This document shows positions 17,701 through 54,160 of a DNA stretch of 64,000 nucleotides, in pieces. Under the pieces are notes generated by a model. It did not search any database, had not been told where the DNA came from, and saw only the letters and a program-made list of their open reading frames with translations. Source of the DNA: Sphaerolaimus hirsutus (taxonomy: Eukaryota; Nematoda; Chromadorea; Monhysterida; Sphaerolaimidae). A program made the position numbers and the translations under genes. The first letter of the stretch is position 1, and each line of letters opens with the position of its first letter. The stretch lies in the NCBI GenBank assembly GCA_964036195.1, contig OZ038452.1, forward strand, positions 14,440,704 through 14,504,703, in the 5' to 3' direction.

Positions 17701-20700
17701 TAGCACCGGCAACCCGCCGGTGCCCTTCGGTGCCGGTGCCATTTTTTCCAAAAAGCACCGGTGCCGGTGCGGTGCGGTGCCATTTTCTGGCCGGTGCCCC
17801 AGGGTGCCAGGTGCCCTTTTCATGCGTTGGCAAAGGTGCCGGTGCGGTGCGGTGCCGTTTTTCCCGGTGCCTTTAACATCACTACATATGACTAGTGAAG
17901 TAAAAGCGCCATGGCGCTGGCGCCAAAGCAAAAAGCGCCATGGCGCTTTTGGCGCTTGGCGCCTTTTTGCTGTGGTGCCATTGGCGCTTGGCGCTCACAT
18001 GCCAAAAGCGCCATGGCGCTTTTTACATCACTACTTATGACACATTTGACATTTTTACAGATCATTTTACACAAATGTGCAGATCATTTTACAGGTCTGT
18101 GAGTGGCATCAGAAGTGATCATACCTATCTCACATGCAAAAACGATTCAACGTGACCCACCTTCAATCTCATCTCTTGATACTCGGCCACACTGACGCTA
18201 GTATCGGTGAAATTGCGCGGCGCAGTAGCCGCCTGGTCTCTGAGCAGTCGGACCTCATCCTCATAATACAGGACCTGCTTCTCCAGGTGGCCGATGCGCG
18301 CTTCCTTCGCCTCGAGCAGCCCGGTCATGGCCGCGTAAGTGCTCGCATCGGCACCGCCGGCGGACGTGCCCGCAGAGGCGGCCGACTTCTGCAGCCTGGG
18401 GGCAGTCCCAGACCCTGTAAAACGCTCTGTAAAATGTCAAATGTCGTGCAAAGTGTCAAAAGTCACGTAAAATGCCTTGCAAAATGGCATACGTGCGTAT
18501 GCCATTTTGCGGGGCATTTTACATGACTTTTGACACTTTGCATGACATTTGACATTTTACAGGACATTTTACAGGGTCTGGGACTGGCACCAGTCTGTCT
18601 GCTGCTGCGACTGGCGCAGCTTCTCGTTGGCAGTGTTGCATTCGTCCTGCGCCGTGCGAGCCTCCTGCTCCTTGGTGTTCAGCAGAGATTCTAGGTGTCT
18701 GAGAAGGCAAACCATGGGGATTTTTTACTCCGCGGTATTGGCAGCAGATAAACTGCACGCCACTGGCGCCACAGCCCACAGTTGCCAATTTCGCAAGTGG
18801 AGAAGTAAAATACCATTTTTGAAATGAGATTCAGAATTCATAATGAATTTGAATTCAGAAGTGAGAAGTTTAAATAAAAATTATCTTTTAGCTTCTTACT
18901 TTCAGTTCATTTCTCTCTTCTACCTTGACTTTTATTTTAACTGTTTACTTAACTTCTCAACTTTAACTTCTCATTTCACCTTTCACTTCTCAACTTATTT
19001 CGCTATTAATTTTTTACATAATTTTTTTACAGGCTCATGCGGCACGCACCTGCATCTATTCTCCAGTTCAATAACTCGTGCCCTGCTCCGTTCTAGTTCC
19101 ATGCGTTCAGCATCTAAGTTGGGCAGGTGCGCCTTGCCCTGGAGCATGTCGAGCAGCTTGCGGATGGAGTCGTCGCGGGCGGCGAGCGTTTGCCGCTGCG
19201 TCTCCACTTGCAGCTCGTACTCGCGCACCGTGTCGCGCACCAGCTGCAGCTCGCCCGACAGCCTGTAGTTGAGCATTGGAGCTATTGATGTAGTGCACAA
19301 ATCCTGTGTCCAAATAGGATATATCGATCTAGAAACGACACGGGCGAGATGATTTAATTCCCTCAATATTTACGTCGTATTTAAAATCATCCGCTGCAGG
19401 ATTATGTGTGTTTTTCGCATTATTTAGCGGGCTAAGAAAAGAGATATGGCAGCGCATATACAGTGTGGACCGTATGCCTTGCTTTTTTCTATATGAAACC
19501 TTCCATCATGACGTCACTCATCAATAATAATTTGTACTCTCCAAAAAATAAAGGAAATGATTTCAGGCTCGAAAAATTCATCGGTTCGGTTGTACTCGTC
19601 TCTGAATTTTTCCTTTTACAATGTTTTTCAATTTTTGGTAAAGAGCGTAAATACATAAGTATCCTAGACGCGCGTTATCGACTAAGACTTATGTCTAGGT
19701 CTAGGACTTAGGTATCGAGTCAACAGAGTATACGCGCAAATACGATGAATCAAGGAGCCAGACAAACTCGTCCCGATGATCATTTTTATAACATCTCGCA
19801 CATGACGTTGTTATCCGCCAGAAAACTGTAGAAACTCACCGATCTCGTTCGTTGCGCACCGCCTCCCAGTCGTGTCTGCCGCTGGGCCCGTCGAGCGTCC
19901 GTTGCTGATCGTAAAGGCACTGGAGATCCGACTGCAACTGTCGGATAAGTGAGGCCGATTTCTGCGTGGCACAGTGGCACGCAGTTGGACAATAGGCGTA
20001 ACGAAGGTACTTGTCAAGTGGAAAAACACCCATTGAGCATCTCGAAAACTTGTGACTGCTAAAATTGCGCACCTGAGTCTCGGCTTGGCAGGCGCGCAGC
20101 TGCTCGTTCACCATGGCATACTTCTGGCTCTCCTCCTTTCTCATTGCCCTCTCCCTCTTCAACTCGGGCGACCAAAAGGTCTTGATGCTGCCCATGGTTT
20201 GGTTCAATTTATTCACAGCCGATTCGTACTCTCGTCTGAGGGCGTCGTATTCCCGCTGCAGCGCGGGCACCGGCAGGGAGTAGGGGTCGCGCGCGAACGG
20301 CACCGGCGCCTGGGTCGAGTGCGACGGCGACACGCCCGACGGCATGGGCGCCGTGCACGTGATCGGCATCATGTGCGACGTGCCCGCAGCGCCTGAACAG
20401 TGTCCGGTGTTATGGCTACATTGGCAAAAAAGTGCCACGGAACACAGTCACACCGACCGTAGGAGGAGACATTGTGCTCAGTGGTGCCGGGCCCGATGGA
20501 CATGGGCAGCGTCTGCTGCTGGAAGGCGGCCAGCGCGCCCGGCCCCGACAACGGCCCGGCGCCGTACTGGCTCAGGTTCATGGTGGTCACGTTCAACGGC
20601 GCCATCTGCCCGCCCGCCGCCGACGCGTAAGGCATGGAACCGCCGCCGCCCGCGCCGTACGACATGCTCAAGCCGGCCGCGCCGCCGCCCGATTGGTGCT

Positions 20701-22355
20701 GCTGCTGCAGACGCGACTGCTGCTGCGCCATGCCGCCGAAGCCTGTCAATATTGCATGTACCATATTTTTTCTAATAGAACGGCATACCTTTAATAGAAG
20801 GGCACCTCCAATAGAACGGCAGGTTTTGTCTCGTTTTTACACTCACGAAAACAAAAGAACGGCTGCCTCAAATTGAACGACAGTCTCCAATAAAACGGTA
20901 GGTAGAAATTACGTTGTGAGTGTATGGTAAAATAAACACAAAAATATATTAAATTTATAGTGAGAACATTCAAAGCATTCAAATATTGATATAAAATTTT
21001 ATATTGATGCGGTGATATCAAAATTTTGCTTAAGTTTAGTAAAAATCAAACTGTTTTGGAACGAAACATGTGTAAAAAATAAAACGACCGCGTCAAATAG
21101 AACGGCAGGTAAAAAAGTTGACGAAAAAATAGTACGTAGTAGTATTCCGAATTTAACGCTCTTCTAGTAGTATTCCGAACTTTACACGGTGTGTGTAAAC
21201 ATTAACATTAGACTCCTTGCACAGAATCCTACCATGTTTTGCTGAATAAAGTCCTGTCATAGTTTGTCGGCTAAATCGTTCCATTACGAAAGTAACGTAT
21301 TGTGATCAATTTGCGAATGACATTTCGAAACAATTCTGGACCATCATTCAGATGAAATATGGTAAATTTGCGTGCATAGTGTGCAGTCGGGAGACTTTTA
21401 CCTGCGACAAACGCGCGCGCACACAAACTTTACACGGAGTTTACAGCGCGCCGTGTAGTTCGTGTAAATATGCGCATGCGGACAAGGCGCCGTTTAAACA
21501 AAATGTATTCACCAGTCCTCTTGGCGCAGTGGACAGCGCGTTGGACTTCTAATCCAAAGGTCGCGGGTTCGACCCCCGCAGGGGATAGTAATTTTTTTTG
21601 CGTTTTTTTGCATTAAGGAATTTAACGGCCAATTACAAACAATATTTAGGTAACCAGTAAAGATCGGTTCAATCCAGTTCACTTTCAGAGAAAACTTCAT
21701 AACTAGATATGCAACGAACCCATGACATGCTGCGGGTGCGTCGGCGCTCTGGGCGACGGCCCGTAGTTGACGTTGGGCGATAGGCCGGCGCCCGGGTTGC
21801 CCGACCCGCCCGCCGACGTGCTCGCGTAGGCGGGGAAGTCGGTCGTGCCGGCGGCCTATAATAGGGCACTCAATAGTTAGTCTGGTTGCGGTCGACCCTG
21901 TAAAGTGTAAAATGTCATGTAAAGTGTCAATCATAACAAAAAAAGAACTGAATTTTATTACTGAACTTTGCATGACAATTGACATTTACTTTACATTTGT
22001 CATGGCAATTGACACTTTACATGACATTTTACACTTTACTCTACAGGGTCTGGAACTGGCACCTGAATCATGGCGCCAATCCCGGACCCTGTAAAAAGCC
22101 CTGTAAAAGGTCAAATGTCATGCAAAGTGTCAAAAGTCATGGAAAATGCCCTGCAAAATGGCAACTCGGTTGACTTTTGACACTTTGCATGACATTTTAC
22201 AGGGCTTTTTACAGCGTCCGGAATCGGCACCAGGGCAGAGTGGAAGTCGCACCTGGAAGTATGAAGCTGGTGCGCCGCTGCCGCCGGCCGCCTGGCTGTA
22301 GTCCATGTTCGGCCCGGGCGTGTTGCCGTCGGCCGCGTCCAGCGACCGGTGCTGC
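11631..22355 (-). CDS. ERC: ELKS/CAST/ERC (Bruchpilot-family) active-zone scaffold, 16-exon core and C terminus
   Basis: ERC proteins are long coiled-coil scaffolds of the presynaptic cytomatrix; they bind RIM, liprin-alpha and Bassoon-type partners and position calcium channels and vesicles. Exons on the minus strand: 22355-22253, 21855-21720, 20742-20458, 20392-20073, 19961-19840, 19262-19050, 18698-18591, 18395-18161, 15972-15805, 15726-15595, 15251-15028, 14149-13969, 13632-13496, 12996-12786, 12515-12192, 11792-11631. All junctions are GT-AG and all phases agree, giving 1,019 residues. Family signatures seen: SIKTFWSPELKRERAMRKEE (about residues 243-262), DDSIRKLLDMLQGK, IEELEEALRES, HVEEVLQLKHEA with AAISEKDAHIALLE, and a final GIWA. 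From about residue 215 almost everything is heptad coiled coil; the first 200 residues are Gly/Ser/Ala/Pro-rich. About 25 residues of the vertebrate protein between exons 8 and 9 are not accounted for, so a short exon may be missing or may not exist here. Human ERC proteins are about 950-1,120 aa. Confidence 0.95.
12192..12515 (-). CDS. ERC: ERC core exon 15
   Basis: The acceptor is CCACGTGCAG and the donor GAG/GTCGGT; phase 0 at both ends. It encodes VSQQLEARAGAYREQLEMLQ and RHERQKHVEEVLQLKHEA with AAISEKDAHIALLE. The latter matches the RRKHLEEVLEMKQEALLAAI block of ERC. Confidence 0.96.
12590..12755. mobile_element. CCGAACCGGAACC-word hAT-like MITE, one end lost
   Basis: Degenerate GAACCGAACCGG words end in CCCCAGCCCTA; the opposite terminus is not recognisable. 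It lies in the intron between ERC core exons 14 and 15. Confidence 0.65.
12786..12996 (-). CDS. ERC: ERC core exon 14
   Basis: The acceptor is GCCGACGCAG and the donor CAG/GTCGGC. It encodes a variable linker (QLDDFKRGRGVYTSSSKPY...) and then RIEELEEALRESVSITAERE, almost identical to vertebrate ERC. Confidence 0.95.
13496..13632 (-). CDS. ERC: ERC core exon 13
   Basis: The acceptor is GTTTTGCAG and the donor CAACG/GTGTGT. It encodes SDGSELDRLSNELDTAREEV and DKLLQMVKNLEKERD, corresponding to the AEVDRLLEILKEVENEK segment of ERC. Confidence 0.92.
13690..13945. mobile_element. ACTCGAGTAC-word element
   Basis: TACTTTTACTCGCAAAATACG words and GTACTCGAGTAC, ending CAACTCTG. Relatives: 5250-5370 and 5990-6175, 54950-55725, 62100-62400. 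It lies between ERC core exons 12 and 13. Confidence 0.65.
13969..14149 (-). CDS. ERC: ERC core exon 12
   Basis: The acceptor is CCATGCAG and the donor GACAAG/GTCTGT. A nearer AG four bases downstream would break the phase, so the first is chosen. It encodes coiled coil (QDLLESHRADAKDLRLAIDS...). Confidence 0.88.
14508..14948. mobile_element. TACCGTATT-family element in ERC intron
   Basis: TACCGTATTACCTCGAAAT to TCGAGGTAATACGGTA; intron between ERC core exons 11 and 12. A decayed relative with CTTGAATAATTTCCCC words lies just before it (14,215-14,505). Confidence 0.87.
15028..15251 (-). CDS. ERC: ERC core exon 11
   Basis: The acceptor is CAACGTGCAG and the donor GATAG/GTTGGT. It encodes IRESKVQMLQRKIDGLEEVV, corresponding to the VKERKVNVLQKKIENLQEQL segment of vertebrate ERC, followed by a Gln-rich coiled coil. 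Confidence 0.93.
15304..15570. mobile_element. TACCGTATTTGCTCG-family element in ERC intron
   Basis: TACCGTATTTGCTCGAATAA opens words such as GGGGAAATTATTCAAGG. It lies in the intron between ERC core exons 10 and 11. Confidence 0.75.
15595..15726 (-). CDS. ERC: ERC core exon 10
   Basis: The acceptor is CATTTGAAG and the donor AAG/GTGAAT; phase 0 at both ends. It encodes IEALRSKLESKNETIEQK..., the counterpart of the LRLRLEEKETMLNKKTKQ segment of ERC. Confidence 0.92.
15805..15972 (-). CDS. ERC: ERC core exon 9
   Basis: The acceptor is ACAAATTTCAG and the donor GAT/GTGAGT; phase 0 at both ends. It encodes MEKTELELSHKQTELQ through QQLNLLQGD, matching the IEVLKESLTAKEQ...LQTEVD stretch of ERC. 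The Met at its start is internal, not a start codon. Confidence 0.93.
16386..16695. mobile_element. GCTGCCAGCTCGC-word palindromic element
   Basis: Bounded by CACAGGGAATAGTACCT and AGGTACTATTCCCTGTG, an inverted pair, with interior words CAGCTCGCTGCCAGCTCG on both arms. Confidence 0.75.
16790..17217. mobile_element. TACCGTATT-family element, nested
   Basis: TACCGTATTACCTCGAAAT to TCGAGGTAATACGGTA inside the GGCACC-word element of ERC intron 8. Confidence 0.87.
17893..18033. mobile_element. GGCGCCATGGCGC-word hAT-like element
   Basis: Starts TAGTGAAGTAAAAGCGCC and ends GGCGCTTTTTACATCACTA; flanks CATATGAC and CTTATGAC (7 of 8). It shares termini with its left neighbour but has a different interior word. 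Related copies lie at 50395-50513 and 56945-57107. Confidence 0.88.
18161..18395 (-). CDS. ERC: ERC core exon 8
   Basis: The acceptor is GCCCCCAG, the last bases of the foldback repeat; the donor is TTGAAG/GTGGGT. The first base completes a Trp codon with exon 7. It encodes a Ser/Ala/Gly linker and then EAKEARIGHLEKQVLYYEDE and VAEYQEMRLK, aligning with the ISSMERGLRDLEEEIQMLK region of vertebrate ERC. Confidence 0.93.
18396..18590 (-). mobile_element. Foldback element that is exactly an ERC intron (introner-like)
   Basis: The whole 195-bp intron 7 of ERC is a near-perfect inverted repeat. On the coding strand it begins GTGCCAGTCCCAGACCCTGT and ends ACAGGGTCTGGGACTGCCCC followed by CAG. The arms of about 95 bp are built of TGTAAAATG and CAAAGTGTCAAA words. 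The outer GT and AG are the splice sites, and the phases of the flanking exons fit only this boundary. Further copies occur at 21885, 22072, 29662, 45194 and 54392. Confidence 0.88.
18591..18698 (-). CDS. ERC: ERC core exon 7
   Basis: The acceptor is CTTCTCAG and the donor GACTG/GTGCCA. It encodes HLESLLNTKEQEARTAQDEC through QQQTD, matching the HLESLLEQKEKEN stretch of vertebrate ERC. The donor GT is also the first two bases of a foldback repeat that fills the whole next intron. Confidence 0.93.
19050..19262 (-). CDS. ERC: ERC core exon 6
   Basis: The acceptor is ACTACAG and the donor TGCAG/GTGCGT. It encodes LSGELQLVRDTVREYELQVE, then the conserved DDSIRKLLDMLQGK, which corresponds to DESIKKLLEMLQSK of vertebrate ERC. 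Confidence 0.95.
19840..19961 (-). CDS. ERC: ERC core exon 5
   Basis: The acceptor is CCACGCAG and the donor GATCG/GTGAGT, a full consensus. It encodes KSASLIRQLQSDLQ through AVRNERDR, coiled coil that follows the SIKTFWSPELK block directly, as in other ERC proteins. Confidence 0.9.
20073..20392 (-). CDS. ERC: ERC core exon 4, conserved SIKTFWSPELK block
   Basis: The acceptor is TGTTCAG and the donor CAG/GTGCGC, leaving in phase 0. It encodes the end of the low-complexity N-terminal part and the start of the coiled coil, with the invariant ERC block SIKTFWSPELKRERAMRKEE. This block is near-identical in vertebrate ERC and insect Bruchpilot and is the strongest single identifier of the gene. 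Confidence 0.95.
20458..20742 (-). CDS. ERC: ERC core exon 3
   Basis: The acceptor is TTGACAG and the donor TACG/GTCGGT. It encodes a Gln/Gly-rich low-complexity region (GFGGMAQQQSRLQQQ... MAPLNVTTMNLSQYGAG...). The intron that follows is only 65 bp, the shortest in the gene. Confidence 0.85.
20761..21110. mobile_element. TAGAACGGC-word element in ERC intron
   Basis: ATTTTTTCTAATAGAACGGC with repeated AATAGAACGGCAG and AATAAAACGG words on both sides of a unique core. Ends are eroded. It lies between ERC core exons 2 and 3. Confidence 0.65.
21515..21587 (+). tRNA. tRNA-Arg(TCT)
   Basis: A 73-base cloverleaf folds fully: acceptor stem GTCCTCT/AGGGGAT (two G-U pairs), D stem GCGC/GCGC, anticodon stem TTGGA/TCCAA with loop CTTCTAA (anticodon TCT), T stem GCGGG/CCCGC with loop TTCGACC. 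The A box TGGCGCAGTGG and B box GGTTCGACCCC are present, and a run of eight Ts follows as pol III terminator. No intron. It lies inside the intron between ERC core exons 2 and 3, on the opposite strand. Confidence 0.95.
21720..21855 (-). CDS. ERC: ERC core exon 2
   Basis: The exon begins after TATTATAG and ends ATGG/GTTCGT. It runs in from phase 0 and leaves one base. It encodes a disordered Gly/Ser/Pro stretch starting AAGTTDFPAYAS and ending HVMG. The phases match both neighbours. Confidence 0.8.
21885..22063. mobile_element. GTGCCAGTYCC foldback copy in ERC intron
   Basis: An inverted repeat with the right end ACAGGGTCTGGAACTGGCAC and a decayed left end (GACCCTGTAAAG). It lies between ERC core exons 1 and 2, adjacent to a second copy. 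Confidence 0.75.
22072..22231. mobile_element. GTGCCAGTYCC foldback copy near ERC splice donor
   Basis: Runs from GGCGCCAATCCCGGACCCTG to GCGTCCGGAATCGGCACC. It starts about 21 bp downstream of the donor of ERC core exon 1. Confidence 0.75.
22253..22355 (-). CDS. ERC: ERC core exon 1
   Basis: The acceptor follows GCACGCAG and the donor is CAG/GTGCGA. The exon enters with one base of a split Arg codon and leaves in phase 0. It encodes QHRSLDAADGN through SYFQ; the RSLD motif resembles the YQSLDRG stretch near the N terminus of insect Bruchpilot. It is very GC-rich compared with the flanking introns. Confidence 0.75.
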
Positions 22356-32051: not shown

Positions 32052-33446
32052 CTGTGGCGGGGACGATAAAAATATCAAATTTGACATTGAAGTAGATCGA
32101 CCGATGAAACATTAAAAAACCATCGAACCTCGTACCGGATGTATGAAGAGGGCTGAGTTATTTATTTACACGAGCAATTACTTGATAGAAATTTGTTTAG
32201 CCGCTCTGACTGTTGGAAACTATTATTTTTGTGTTGCGAGAGGAGCAAGCTTTGCTTACGTTACATACTGATCTATCAGTCTGTCATAGGGATAAATTCA
32301 TCATATTGGTTTCGGTTTTGGTGTACTAAACGGTTTGTCATATTGGTAGTATGAAGTTGATCATACACAACATAAGATTTGATATGAACATTGCAGATTT
32401 ATCATAATTTTACATACAGACAGATAAACATAGGTTTTTTGTTTGCATTTGGAACATTTGCCTATTGCCCACTGATGCACAGAGGTAGCGTCACTTCACA
32501 TCCTAGTCATTTTACATTCCTCTGTATTGCAACAGTTTACATTCCACAGTAATGTGTGTCTACCACGCCAATTTACATCCTGTTAAAAATTGTTGCATCC
32601 CACACTTTTTGTACACTCCACATTCCATTAAAAAGCGGCACTTTACATCCCACGAAAAAACCGTCAAATGTCAAGCAACAGAAGTCTATACTCTGCATGT
32701 GAAGTCACACAAAGGTCAACACATATACCAAGCAATTGGACTGTAAGGGGTTGCCGCGACCCCACAATTCATGCGAAGTAGAGGGGGCTCGCACCAATAT
32801 CTCTTCCAAGCTTCAGCTTCTGGTGTGCCCTAGAACTGAAGATATGATGTCACAAGTGGAATCAAAAATAGGGTGTTGGACATGACTGGGAAGGTGTTTA
32901 GAAACGTGTGCTCATGAAATACATATTGAATATTGTATAATGAATATTGAATATTGTAAAATGAATATTGTATAATGTATAAAACCAACAATGAAATGTG
33001 GCATCTAATATATGGCATCTGACATGAATATGTGTAACTGTAAGACAGGAGAATGGTAACTGAAGATGCACCTGCAGAATGTAAAGTGTCGCAAAGGTGA
33101 TACATTTTCACACAGAATGTAAACTGAAACACTATATGATGAAAACTGTCACATTGTGGAAGAATGTAAAACTTTTTTGGGAGAATGTAAACTGTCCAGA
33201 ATGTAAAGTGGCCTGGCCTTGATGCACAGCATGCCTGACTGATGCCATGAAAATCCTAACATGCTACTCTTGTACAACTGTAAACTGTGCATTTGCAATG
33301 TAATATGTGCTGCAACTATTGTTGTGCACATTTATTTTGGAAAGTGCTGTGACATGGTGGCAAAATGCAGGCAGTAGGGCTGTCAAACATGTTTGTCAAA
33401 CATGTGGCACCTGTGACTTAGATGTAAACTGAGTGCAATTGTCTTA

Positions 33447-33898
33447 AGCCCGGATTACAGCTCAACAAAAAATTATGATGCAATGGAGAATTATTTTTCA
33501 CCGCACAATTATTTACAGAAGAATGGAGAAAAATACAGTGTTGTAATTTTAGAGTTTAATAGTCCTATTAATTGTCTTTTATGTGTGTAAAAATTGTTTC
33601 ATTATCCTTATTATTTAGGTAGTAGATAATTTTGCAGTAAATTTTTGTCATCATGAAACATTCCAACAGAAAATTCTAATGGAAAATTACAAAAAATTCA
33701 CTGCAAAATTATTTACTACACAAATAGGTAATGAAAATAATGAAACAATTTTTACACACATAAAAGACAATTAATAGGACTATTAAACTCTAAAGTTACA
33801 ACACTGTATCTTCCTCCATTCATCTGTAAATAATTTTGTGGTGATAAATAATTCTCTATTGTGTCATAATTTTCCATCAAGCTGTAATTCCAGCTTAA
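33447..33898. mobile_element. AAGCCGGATTACAGC foldback
   Basis: AAGCCCGGATTACAGCTCAA pairs with AAGCTGTAATTCCAGCTT; arms of about 200 bp rich in AATTATTTAC. Confidence 0.88.
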
Positions 33899-34403
33899 AG
33901 CCAGAGTTACAGCATAACGATAAATAGAAGATGATACGACAAATAAAACATCACTGATCAATCCATTATTTTCATGTTTACAAGTTTTTTATTGAAAATA
34001 AATGTTCATTACTGAGTTAAAAAGAAAAAAAATTCATATGGGAGATGTTAAATTAGAATTTGAATGAAAAATGTTCAATGAAAAATGGTCCGCATGCACA
34101 AATCAATTTCACGGTGATGCCCAAAAATCAATTTGTCGATGGCCATTTCATGCAATGACTGTTGGCAAATTGATTTTAGGGCATCACCGTGAAATTGATT
34201 TGTTGGCGGACCATTTTTCATCGGACATTTTCATTCAAATTCAAATTTAACATCTCCCATATGGAAATTTTTTTCATTCAAATTTGAGTATTGAACATTT
34301 ATTTTCACTAAAAAAACTTGAAAACACAAAAAATTGGATTTATCGTTGATGTTTTATTTGTCATATCACCTTCTATTTATTGTTATGCTGTAACTCCAGC
34401 TTA
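33893..34403. mobile_element. AAGCCAGAGTTACAGC foldback, abutting
   Basis: AAGCCAGAGTTACAGCATAA pairs with TTATGCTGTAACTCCAGCTT. It shares termini with its left neighbour and overlaps it by a few bases, but the arms are unrelated. Confidence 0.88.
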
Positions 34404-45034: not shown

Positions 45035-45193
45035 CTCGTGCAGGTCGGCTCTGGCAGCGAGCATGTCGCGCGGCTTCGGTGGCGGCGGCGGCGGCGTTTT
45101 ATCCATCCGCCGGCCGCGCTGCTTCAGCCGGCGCTCGGGTGAGCAGAGCACACCGACGGCGCCCAAACCGGACGACCGCCGCACCGGGCGGTA
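45035..45193 (-). CDS. Candidate upstream ERC exon, proline-rich
   Basis: The minus-strand reading is YRPVRRSSGLGAVGVLCSPE, then a run of six prolines followed by KPRDMLAARADLHE. The acceptor AG lies in the end of a foldback repeat (GGTCTGGGAG). No GT donor keeps phase; the best is a GC donor, CACGAG/GCACGT, leaving phase 0. The reverse strand also has a donor-like CTCGG/GTGAGC, so strand is not certain. Confidence 0.45.
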
Positions 45194-45946
45194 CTCCCAG
45201 ACCCTGTAAAATGCCCTGTCACGTGTAAAATGTCATGTAAAGTGTCAAAAGTCATGTAAAATGCCCATGGAAATCTTCATTTGCTATTTTACACGGCTTT
45301 TTCATTACTTTTGAGACTTTGCAAGCAGGGTTGGCAAAATCTCAGAAAAAAATAAAAATAAAATAAAAATATAATGGAATATTCAAGAATAAAAATAAAA
45401 ATTGTATACAAATTTGAATTTTTGTAAATGTTTTGTAAAATTGTATCAAAATTCATATTTTTGTAAAATTGTATAAAAATTCATATATTTTTTGTAAAAT
45501 TTTGTCTCATTGCTTGAGTCTCTACGTGTCTATTCATGGATCTGGGGGCAGTCCCAAGCATTGTAAAGTGTCAAATGTCATGTAAAATGTCATGCAAAGT
45601 GTAAATTGTCATGACATCTAAAAATTAAAGTATCAATTGTCAAGCAAATTGTGCATGTTTCTGATTTTTTGTAAAATTTTTGTACAATTTTTGCAAAATG
45701 TGTCATTTTATTTTATTAATGACTTTTGGGAATAAAATAAAATAAAATAAAATGAAACATGAATAAAATTAAAATAAAATAAAATTTTTATTCAATTTTT
45801 ATACAATTTTACTAAAATGAATTTTTATAAAACCAACCCTGTTTGCAAGAGATTTGACAGCTTACATGAACATTTTGCATGCCTTTTGACACTTTGCATG
45901 ACATTTTACATTTTACATGGTAATTTACATAGTCTTGGAGTTGCAC
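45194..45946 (-). mobile_element. Second foldback element delimiting an intron, with a nested insertion
   Basis: The interval between the candidate exons at 46.0 and 45.1 kb begins GTGCAACTCCAAGACTATGT and ends TTTACAGGGTCTGGGAG on the minus strand, the degenerate termini of the same family as the ERC intron 7 element. An AATAAA-word element (45326-45841) is nested inside it with an exact 8-bp duplication. Confidence 0.65.
45326..45841. mobile_element. AATAAA-word hAT-like element, copy 1
   Basis: Ends CAGGGTTGGCAAAATC and ACCAACCCTG; exact 8-bp duplication TTTGCAAG. The outer parts are AATAAAATAAAAT words; the middle carries a GGGGCAGTCCCAAGCATTGT fragment of the foldback family. Confidence 0.92.
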
Positions 45947-48961: not shown

Positions 48962-50032
48962 CAGGGTTGGCAAAATCTCAGAAAAAAAATAAAAATAAAA
49001 TAAAAATAAAATGGAATATTCAAGAATAAAATAAAATAAAATAAAATGGAAAATTTAAGAATAAAAATAAAAATTGTATAAAAATTCGAATTTTTGTAAA
49101 ATATTTGTAAAATTGTATAAAAATTCATATTTTTGTAAAATTGTGTAAAAATTCATATTTTTTTGTAAAATTTTGTCTCATTGCTCGAGTCTCTACCTAT
49201 TTATTCATGGATCTGGGGGGTGTCTCAAGCATTGTAAAGTGTCAAATGTCATGTAAAATGTCATGCAAAGTGTCAATTGTTATGACAAATGTAAAGTACA
49301 GTGTAAATTGTCATGACATGTAAAAATTAAAGTATCAATTGTCAAGCAAATTGTGTTCAAATCTCATGTTTTATTTCGAAATCTTATGTTTTGTATCCAA
49401 ATTATGTTGTTGTTAACTCCAAAACTTTATGTGAACATTTGGATACAAAAACATAAGATTTGGATATAAAACATACTATGGATACAAAAACACAAGATTT
49501 GGATACACAATTTACACTTTGCATGACATTTGTCATGACAATTGCCACTTTGCTTGAAATTTTACATGACACTTGACATTTTGCATGACAATTGATACTT
49601 TACTTTACATTTGTCATGACAATTGACACTTTGCATGACATTTTACAAATGTGCCCAGCACACTCCAGTAGTCCTTCCTCTGAAAATGCAAACCATTCTT
49701 ATCAATAATTGTAACTTTACACTTGCAGCTAGCTAACAATACATATTGCATACAACTTTTGAAAAGTAAGGGAAAAATTTGTCACAGGTTTTTCATGTAA
49801 GGTCTAATTATAACATTTTTCTGGCCTTGCATGCATGTTTCTGATTTTTTGTAAAATTTTTGTAAAATTTTTGTACAATTTTTGTAAAATGAGTCATTTT
49901 ATTTTATTAATGACTTTTGGGAATAAAATAAAATAAAATAAAATGAAACAAGAATAAAATAAAAATAAAATAAAATTTTTATACAATTTTTATACAATTT
50001 TACTAAAATGAATTTTTATAAAACCAACCCTG
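48962..50032. mobile_element. AATAAA-word hAT-like element, copy 2 (full length)
   Basis: Ends CAGGGTTGGCAAAATC and ACCAACCCTG; exact 8-bp duplication CCCACTAA. It contains a long foldback core with CTTATGTTTTGTATCCAAAT arms and the same internal foldback-family fragment as copies 1 and 3. Confidence 0.93.
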
Positions 50033-51998: not shown

Positions 51999-53054
51999 GG
52001 GCGTGCACTGATACGCACACGTGCCCGATACGCACATATGCCCGTTTTTTACACTTGACACTTTTTCAAGTGATTTTCAGATATGAGTAAAGTGAAAAAA
52101 AGTTGCGCAATGACATTAGTAAACTTTTTCACTTCACTCATATCTGAAAATCACTTGAAAATGTGTCAAATGAAAAACAGTGGAAAATGGCTATTTTTCA
52201 CTGTTTTTTTTTTTCACTTGACACATTTTCAAGTGATTTTCAGATATGAGTGAAGTGAAAAAAGTTCACTAATGTCATTGCGCAACTTTTTTTCACTTTA
52301 CTCATATCTGAAAATCACTTGAAAAAGTGTCAAGTGAAAAAAACAGGCATATGTAGGGTGTCAAAAAAATTTTTTTACGGAAAACGGAAACAGAAAAAAA
52401 AATTTTCAGCGGCCGGAAAACGGAACGGAAAACGGAAAAAAATTTGCACTTGGCGGAAAACGGAAACGGAAACGGAAAAAAAATTTCAGCGGTCGGAAAA
52501 CGGAAAAAGAGGCCGGAAAAACGGAAACGGAAAAATCAAATTTGCACGGAAATGGAAAAACTTGCTGAAATTTTGCCAGAAAACAGATAAAATTGGCTGA
52601 AATTTTGCTGGAAGTGGTAAAAATTTGCAGTAATTTTGCTGGAAACAGAAATTTTTTACATCATTGACAATCTGCATGAATTTTTACCAGTTTGGCTGAT
52701 CAGTAAACAGAAAGTTGAGCCAGAAAAAGGTAAAATGAGGCGGAAAAATGGAAAATTGAGGCGGAAAATGGAAAAAAGGCAGAAAAACTGGAAATTGAGG
52801 CGGAAAACGGAAAAAAGGCGGAAAAACTGAAAATTTAGCCGGAAAACGGAAAATGAGCCGGAAAAACGGAAACGGAAAAACATGTTGCCGGAAAACGGAA
52901 CGGAAAACGGAGAAAAAAAATTCAGCAGCCGGAAAACGGAACGGAAAACGGAAAAAATTTGCCTGCGGAAAACGGAAACGGAAAATGGAAAACGGAAATT
53001 TGACACCCTAGGCATATGTGCGTATCGGGCACGTGTGCGTATCAGGCCTGCCCC
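51999..53054. mobile_element. GATACGCACACGTGCCC element with nested insertions
   Basis: The ends GGGCGTGCACTGATACGCAC and GTATCAGGCCTGCCCC are inverted and flanked by the exact 8-bp duplication GTGAGAAG. Inside are a foldback of TTTTTCACTTGACAC arms (about 52,047-52,345) and the GGAAAACGG-word element. A degenerate relative lies near 62,500-62,620. Confidence 0.8.
52354..53010. mobile_element. hAT-like MITE with GGAAAACGG-word interior, copy 4 (nested)
   Basis: Starts TAGGGTGTCAAA, ends TTGACACCCTA, with the exact 8-bp duplication GGCATATG. It sits inside the 51,999-53,054 element. Confidence 0.92.
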
Positions 53055-53107: not shown

Positions 53108-54160
53108 CAGGGTTGGTTTTATAAAAATTCATTTTAGTAAAATTGTATAAAAATTGTATAAAAATTTTATTTTATTTTAATTTCATTCTTGTTTCATTTT
53201 ATTTTACTTTATTTTATTCCCAAAAGTCATTAATAAAATAAAATGACACATTTTACAAAATTTTTACAAAAATTGTACAAAAATTTTACAAAAAAATCAG
53301 AAACATGCATGCAAGGCCAGAAAAATGTTATAATTAGACCTATACATGAAAAACCTGTGACAAATTTTTCCATTACTTTTCAAATGTTGCATGCAGTATG
53401 TATTGTTAGCTAGCTGCAAGTGTAAAGTCACAATTATAGATAAGAATGGTTTGCATTTTCAGTAGAAGGACTACTGGAGTGTGCTGGGCACATTTGTAAA
53501 ATGTCATGCAAAGTGTCAATTGTCATGACAAATGTAAAGTAAAGTATCAATTGTCATGCAAGATGTCAAGTGTCATGTAAAATTTCAAGCAAAGTACCAA
53601 TTGTCATGACAAATGTCATGCAAAGTGTAAATTGTGTATCCAAATCTTGTATTTTTGTATCCATAGTATGTTTTATATCCAAATCTTATGCTTTTGTATC
53701 CAAATGTTCACATAAGATTTGGAGTCAACAACAACATAATTTGGATACAAAACATAAGAAGTCGAAATAAAACATGAGATTTGAACACAATTTGCTTGAC
53801 AACTGATACTTTAATTTTTACATGTCATGACAATTTACACTTTACTTTACATTTGTCATAACAATTGACACTTTGCATGACATTTTACATGGCATTTGAC
53901 ACTTTACAATGCTTGGGACTGCCCCCAGATCCATGAATAAACAGGTAGAGACTCAAGCAATGAGACAAAATTTTACAAAAAATATGAATTTTTATACAAT
54001 TTTACAAAAACACGAATTTTTATACAATTTTACAAAAAAATTACAAAAATTCAAATTTTTATACAATTTTTATTTTTATTCTTAAATTTTCCATTTTATT
54101 TTATTTTATTTTATTCTTGAATATTCCATTTTATTTTTATTTTTTTCTGAGATTTTGCCT
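53108..54160. mobile_element. AATAAA-word hAT-like element, copy 3
   Basis: Starts CAGGGTTGGTTTTATAAAA and runs, inverted relative to copy 2, to a decayed end GAGATTTTGCCTGG. The interior is colinear with copy 2. No duplication is recognisable at the damaged end. Confidence 0.82.

Follow-up and report, generated by a model that had tools for sequence, protein, structure and literature searches.

An intron of the ERC gene consists, from donor to acceptor, of a palindromic transposable element and one copy of its flanking triplet, and comparison with other copies indicates that the element is very likely an introner, that is, a MITE that makes introns through insertion into exons. We propose, with a probability of roughly 0.88, that it is a NuwaI-like (PHIS, PIF/Harbinger-like), palindromic and non-autonomous MITE, which inserts as an introner at CWG triplets in exons; its splicing, its transposase and the duplication of its target are what we infer from the copies. 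The position of the element, its boundaries, the exact restoration of conserved proteins in the sense orientation and the asymmetry of its two arms are direct observations.

According to the proposed mechanism, a palindromic CWG triplet in an exon would serve as the insertion target and would be doubled by the insertion. The left CWG copy would close the upstream exon (CWG|GT), the donor would come from the element through one altered end base (GGG to GTG), and the right CWG copy would act as the acceptor, its CAG form being a normal AG. With a CAG right copy, excising the element plus one triplet would therefore restore the mRNA exactly. The hairpin may assist splicing.

Position and boundaries of the ERC intron

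In the window, the whole 64,000-nucleotide stretch of DNA analysed here, the predicted ERC intron, numbered 7 in the original prediction, occupies 18396..18590 on the minus strand and is 195 nt long, with the donor GT at 18590-18589 and the acceptor AG at 18397-18396. On this strand it begins GTGCCAGTCCC and terminates GGGACTGCCCCCAG. The element proper (GTGCCAGTCCC...GGGACTGCCCC), delimited by an alignment of 40 copies and their consensus, is a 192-nt foldback at 18399..18590 on the minus strand, to which the intron adds one 3-bp flank copy. The 5' flank triplet CTG (18591..18593, minus strand) is the target triplet and remains exonic. The 3' flank triplet CAG (18396..18398, minus strand) supplies the AG acceptor and is presumably the second copy of the target triplet, with T changed to A. 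The upstream ERC exon (HLESLLNTKEQEARTAQDECNTANEKLRQSQQQTD-W) extends over 18591..18698, its start being predicted from CAG|ACAC, and the downstream exon (LQKSAASAGTSAGGADAS...EYQEMRLK) over 18161..18395, its end being predicted from AAG|GTGGGT, both on the minus strand. Dense GGTGCC/GGCGCC-rich repeats (such as AAAAGCGCCATGGCGCTTTT) are found near the ERC exon, at 17801-18030 of the window.

The original prediction described this intron as a palindromic foldback running from splice site to splice site, and on this point the coordinates, the inverted repeat and the fold agree. The two arms of the inverted repeat, 18392-18493 and 18496-18597, pair over 102 nt and are 90% complementary, and the RNA fold of the intron reaches -146.8 kcal/mol, compared with -44.7 +/- 3.8 for 200 shuffles (z -26.9). 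The identification of the host gene as ERC/CAST also holds, as the Pfam Cast domain matches the exon translations, joined by eye, at 2.4e-39 in two stretches, the best of which lies in an upstream exon. The further claim that the exon phases fit only this boundary is not correct: the ERC frame stays open with eight GT-AG pairs of the range scanned. The frame alone is therefore insufficient to fix the boundary of the intron, and the GT-AG pair at the element ends is preferred because of the evidence from the family.

Copies of the element and their predicted splice junctions

With the ERC intron as query, the genome to which the window belongs (348 Mb, 762 contigs) gave 80 scored matches in at least 40 places, the window's own included, with only 40 of the 3916 first-look candidates being scored. 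The 40 copies from this search were read with 1500-bp flanks. A second query, a copy with GT at both ends, yielded 32 new places, 12 of which were read; the full set thus comprises 52 copies, 40 found by similarity to the ERC intron and 12 by the GT/GT query. In a random sample of 160 kb (16 stretches at round-number positions), eight stretches cover more than 90% of the family model, and five of these eight are at least 179 bp long. Five per 160 kb would correspond to roughly eleven thousand copies genome-wide, as estimated from this small sample.

Within the window, a related copy with diverged ends is located at 22071..22230 (model positions 2-193, 143 bits), beside a more diverged relative at 21896..22065 (71.5 bits), and a partial relative is located at 45187..45325 (model positions 50-194, 105 bits). 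Together with the places found genome-wide, such partial or diverged copies bear out the earlier view of a dispersed family with further members in the window. The family has the characteristics of a MITE: a length of ~190 nt, no coding content, inverted repeats, a probable target duplication and a high copy number. Other long inverted repeats in the window lie at 33444-34402, 49233-49643, 52034-52354 and 53557-53908. Those at 49 and 53 kb have modules such as AAAGTGTCAAATGTCATG in common with the ERC-intron family, which suggests related MITE families.

For each copy, the element and one flanking triplet were removed, the frames open across the joint were translated on both strands, and the translations were scanned with Pfam. 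Sense and antisense could not be told apart by the length of the reading frames alone (median shorter arm 45.5 vs 38.5 codons), and domain matches were therefore used instead. In the sense orientation (testable open frame at 49 of 52 loci), a Pfam domain spans the joint in seven of the first 40 copies and in three of the 12 further copies, whereas the antisense joints of the same 52 loci, 49 of them with a testable frame, gave no Pfam domain (10 to 0, two-sided binomial p 0.002). One more copy, L035, was counted through a PDB match to PDE1B, a test applied to the sense strand only, giving 11 of 52 copies (11 to 0, p 0.001).

Among the first 40 copies, the domains found across the joint, with Pfam E-values that refer to packs of several loci, are M23 (L006, below the family cut-off), 7tm_1 (L008), eL40 (L011), P4-ATPase (L012), a kainate-type glutamate receptor (L033), M13 (L038, below the family cut-off) and a kinase (L040). 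The 12 further copies contributed UCH (L078), a receptor guanylyl cyclase (L080, below the family cut-off) and CUT_N (L085), and L035 is PDE1-like by PDB only. Three other loci were not counted: the PAX match of L026 ends short of the joint, the match of L004 starts at the joint, and that of L005 lies beside it. No domain crosses the joint in the remaining 41 of 52 copies. The coincidence of genomic copies with introns, which the original prediction had proposed as a check, is seen as a domain restored at the joint in 11 of 52 copies, always on the GTGCC-first strand, in a set selected by similarity in which exonic copies may be over-represented.

MITEs are frequent inside introns. An ordinary MITE could therefore reside within an older intron whose splice sites happen to be close to the element ends, and in one copy (L004) the only recognisable domain is indeed downstream of the element. 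Several observations argue against this, and we find such an origin hardly credible. The domain-supported copies sit in different genes at different positions, and the element ends coincide with the predicted splice sites in 11 different proteins, the whole intron being the element plus one triplet in each. Intron phases were determined for 11 copies (L001, L005, L006, L008, L011, L012, L032, L033, L035, L038 and L040), and each is 0 or 2. When compared with the best solved structures, the joint is free of gaps in six of seven cases, namely eL40, the glutamate receptor, PDE1B, the P4-ATPase, the natriuretic peptide receptor and UCH. Identity is low near the P4-ATPase joint, and the natriuretic peptide receptor has a gap further downstream; in the sodium/calcium exchanger (L032) a 2-residue gap lies beside the joint. 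Excision of the element and one triplet therefore restores the protein in those six, as insertion into an exon would predict.

The M13 locus (L038) carries three family copies in ~2 kb, at 53-239, about 1501-1690 and 1870-2057. The second copy splits the M13 peptidase domain, and the third comes after the next stretch of that frame and is flanked by CAT/CACATG instead of CWG.

Asymmetry of the arms and orientation

The two arms of the consensus, whether derived from 40 or 52 copies, are identical except for element bases 2 (T/G) and 4 (C/G). As a result, one end presents a GTGCC donor, and the other presents GCCCC before the triplet, that is, a C-rich acceptor. The ERC copy, like the consensus, has unlike ends when each is read from its own side, GTGCC at one and GGGGC at the other; the reverse strand is therefore without a terminal GT. 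Of 52 elements oriented by their ends, 50 begin with GT and the other two with AT and TC, a count that is partly given by construction because orientation was itself assigned from the ends. Read from its own side, the far end starts with GG in 44 of the 52 and with GT in one. In the 12 copies obtained with the GT/GT query, the far ends are GGGGC (7), GCGGC (3), GGGAA (1) and GTGGT (1). Replacement of one G by T in a GGG end of the NuwaI type would create the donor, and the change presumably took this direction.

Folded together with 30 nt of exon, the 40 copies have a mean unpaired value of 0.30 at the donor and 0.44 at the acceptor, compared with 0.07 in the interior. A hairpin that leaves both splice sites free was considered and rejected, as these values indicate only a partial opening. 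The pairs lost at the two asymmetric positions may loosen the foot of the hairpin.

The original prediction held that a palindrome with a shared internal motif offers splice sites on either strand and is splice-ready both ways. The shared motif is confirmed, TTTTACAG being present on both strands of the consensus, but the terminal GT occurs at one end only. If the palindrome were spliced equally well either way, the orientation of insertion would be irrelevant. The near identity of the arms and the motif on both strands would suit this, as would a short 95-bp relative (L036:1198-1292) that bears GTGCC at both ends, and a copy at L052:691-882 with GT at both ends, apparently an intron in the reverse orientation. 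However, domains were restored in 11 sense and 0 antisense cases among the 52 copies, and the far end is GT in a single copy even though the query that brought in 12 of these copies had GT at both ends. We therefore regard equal splicing in both directions as unlikely, and both-way splicing as a property of the family is not supported by these sequences.

The copy at L052:691-882 is probably an individual reverse-orientation intron. On the strand that runs against the family orientation, it is embedded in a frame that stays open for 106 and 77 codons, and a repeat of one Cys-rich module (NCG..G.NCPD.MCV) is located on each side of it. A Pfam search with this protein gave no family match, and the support for a reverse intron consequently comes from the internal repeat alone. 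A long antisense frame was also noted at L007, with no Pfam domain in it.

The CWG triplet, possible CTG acceptors and known systems

CWG is found on both sides of the element in 37 of 52 copies, and 15 are without a clean CWG pair. In the triplet table, which contains 50 loci after the duplicated loci L014 and L031 were dropped, the left/right triplets are CAG/CAG in 19, CAG/CTG in 1, CTG/CAG in 9 and CTG/CTG in 7, with 14 of 50 falling outside these classes. A looser reading, in which C-CAG right ends are taken as CAG, changes these counts to 20, 1, 13 and 7; the strict count is preferred. The surroundings of the triplet are approximately palindromic (G at -6 in 20/36, C at -4 in 19/36, G at +1 in 24/36 and C at +3 in 15/36), and codon periodicity contributes to these mirrored bases. 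A target duplication of 8 bp, suggested by L005 and L006, was rejected, as the 40 copies share CWG only.

It is conceivable that CWG belongs to the inverted repeat of the element (CTGGKGSCAG) and is not a target duplication, and the triplets of the consensus, a left CTG and a right CAG, do form an inverted pair. Conversely, the left triplet consists of native codons in conserved proteins and adds no residue, and the left and right W are associated, being identical in 26 of 36 copies (Fisher p 0.012). This makes an origin of CWG within the element quite unlikely, and we favor a duplicated target. CAG resembles the protosplice context. Insertion at CWG would therefore provide a simple reason for a transposon to yield exact introns.

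The NuwaI group of PHIS, described in 16 animal genomes, has CWG target duplications and terminal repeats that usually start with GGG (PMC4482050). The family studied here resembles it in the CWG flanks and in its GGGGC end, and differs from it in having GTG for GGG at the other end and in being ~190 nt long and palindromic throughout (PMC4482050). Judged solely by the CWG triplets and the GGG end, membership in NuwaI is likely. An autonomous partner would be expected to encode a DDE transposase (PF13359) and a Myb/SANT ORF, and to have GGGGCAGTCCC terminal repeats adjoining CWG.

Introners of Micromonas, Aureococcus, Symbiodinium and others carry inverted repeats and/or target duplications and generate introns by insertion into exons (Gozashti et al. 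2022, PMC9860276). Their splice sites come from the element or the duplication in several ways, including both sites on the element, and this survey found introners in two animal groups only (PMC9860276). An introner with inverted repeats and target duplications is an established kind. Unlike those surveyed, the present family is a near-perfect palindrome that would bring its own donor, take the acceptor from the CWG duplication and restore the mRNA exactly (PMC9860276). The introner elements of Amoebophrya are similar in their inverted repeats, hairpins and direct repeats, 3-5 nt long, where intron meets exon, but they belong to a dinoflagellate and have highly variable splice sites (PMC7789003). 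In the literature searched, which includes few papers of subscription journals, the terms introner and Harbinger occur together in one paper, a fungal study, and no intron paper stood among the eight listed of 82 matches to a search that included NuwaI. Within that scope, an introner of NuwaI type that takes its acceptor from CWG appears to be new.

The 3' ends of the 11 domain-supported copies are AG in six and TG in five. The five CTG-ending copies (L012, L033, L035, L080 and L085) interrupt conserved genes, and the exons on either side of them are open. In none of the five does a GT-AG or GC-AG pair, over the range scanned, yield the exact protein; the nearest such products are 3 to 11 residues longer. 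In the consensus, the internal TTTTACAG stops 19 nt short of the triplet's end. Either TG is accepted by the spliceosome in these five copies, or they are damaged alleles, or splicing relies on a different site.

The gene-borne CTG...CTG copies may be broken or polymorphic alleles, or users of another site, instead of GT-TG introns. In human genes, TG acceptors have been reported exclusively where an alternative AG lies within 28 nt, and they were judged incapable of constitutive use (PMC2374985). L035 is in keeping with this, as an AG 9 nt upstream would make a product 3 residues longer. Conversely, CTG/CTG copies make up five of the 11 with domain support, and the failure of all GT-AG and GC-AG pairs to give the exact protein in these conserved genes argues against the use of another site. 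Young age was considered for the CTG/CTG copies but is not clearly borne out: the mean divergence from the consensus is 0.055-0.060 in the three main classes, with no clear difference, and the divergence between arms (0.058 vs 0.063-0.072 in the other classes) does not make them clearly younger than the CAG copies. Damaged alleles or other sites are a serious possibility, somewhat short of an even chance.

The right triplet is CAG in nine of the 16 copies with a left CTG. Among 2652 cases of an interior T, 21 (0.8%) show A instead, and at this rate the chance of at least nine in 16 is ~1e-15, assuming that the triplets began equal. The mismatches are also directional, with nine CTG/CAG vs one CAG/CTG (p 0.02). 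This excess of right-hand CAG at CTG insertions appears selection-like, resembling the footprint expected from selection for an AG acceptor, with intergenic controls too few for comparison. We tentatively suggest that both targets may give working introns, CAG leading to GT-AG at once and CTG leading to a GT-TG intron accepted by the spliceosome, in which T to A would often be selected later. The first and last G would be retained in such an intron, and its end would be presented by the hairpin.

In Fritillaria borealis, also an animal, YAY triplets are often repeated at both intron borders, AG/AC and AG/AT introns are the most frequent, and introner transposons with weak splice sites are mentioned as well (PMC13326754). 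This shows that an animal spliceosome is capable of shifting to non-AG ends. The two cases share the triplet at both borders and possibly the non-AG ends, whereas the family described here uses CWG with GT/AG and possibly GT/TG (PMC13326754).

The origin of new introns is a long-standing question, and animal introners have rarely been described (PMC9860276). The present family appears abundant and still recognisable. Differences between the acceptors of its copies would allow successive steps of intron birth to be read side by side; if the GT-TG reading is true, the genome holds frozen intermediates of this process, and the GGG to GTG change committed a symmetrical transposon to splicing in one direction. 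The two-base asymmetry and the TG acceptors are the points that most deserve testing.

Two open frames were also noted among the loci. That at L053:2-2467 is long and by eye resembles a retroelement reverse transcriptase, and that at L054:7988-9433, of 482 residues, is by eye possibly virus-derived.
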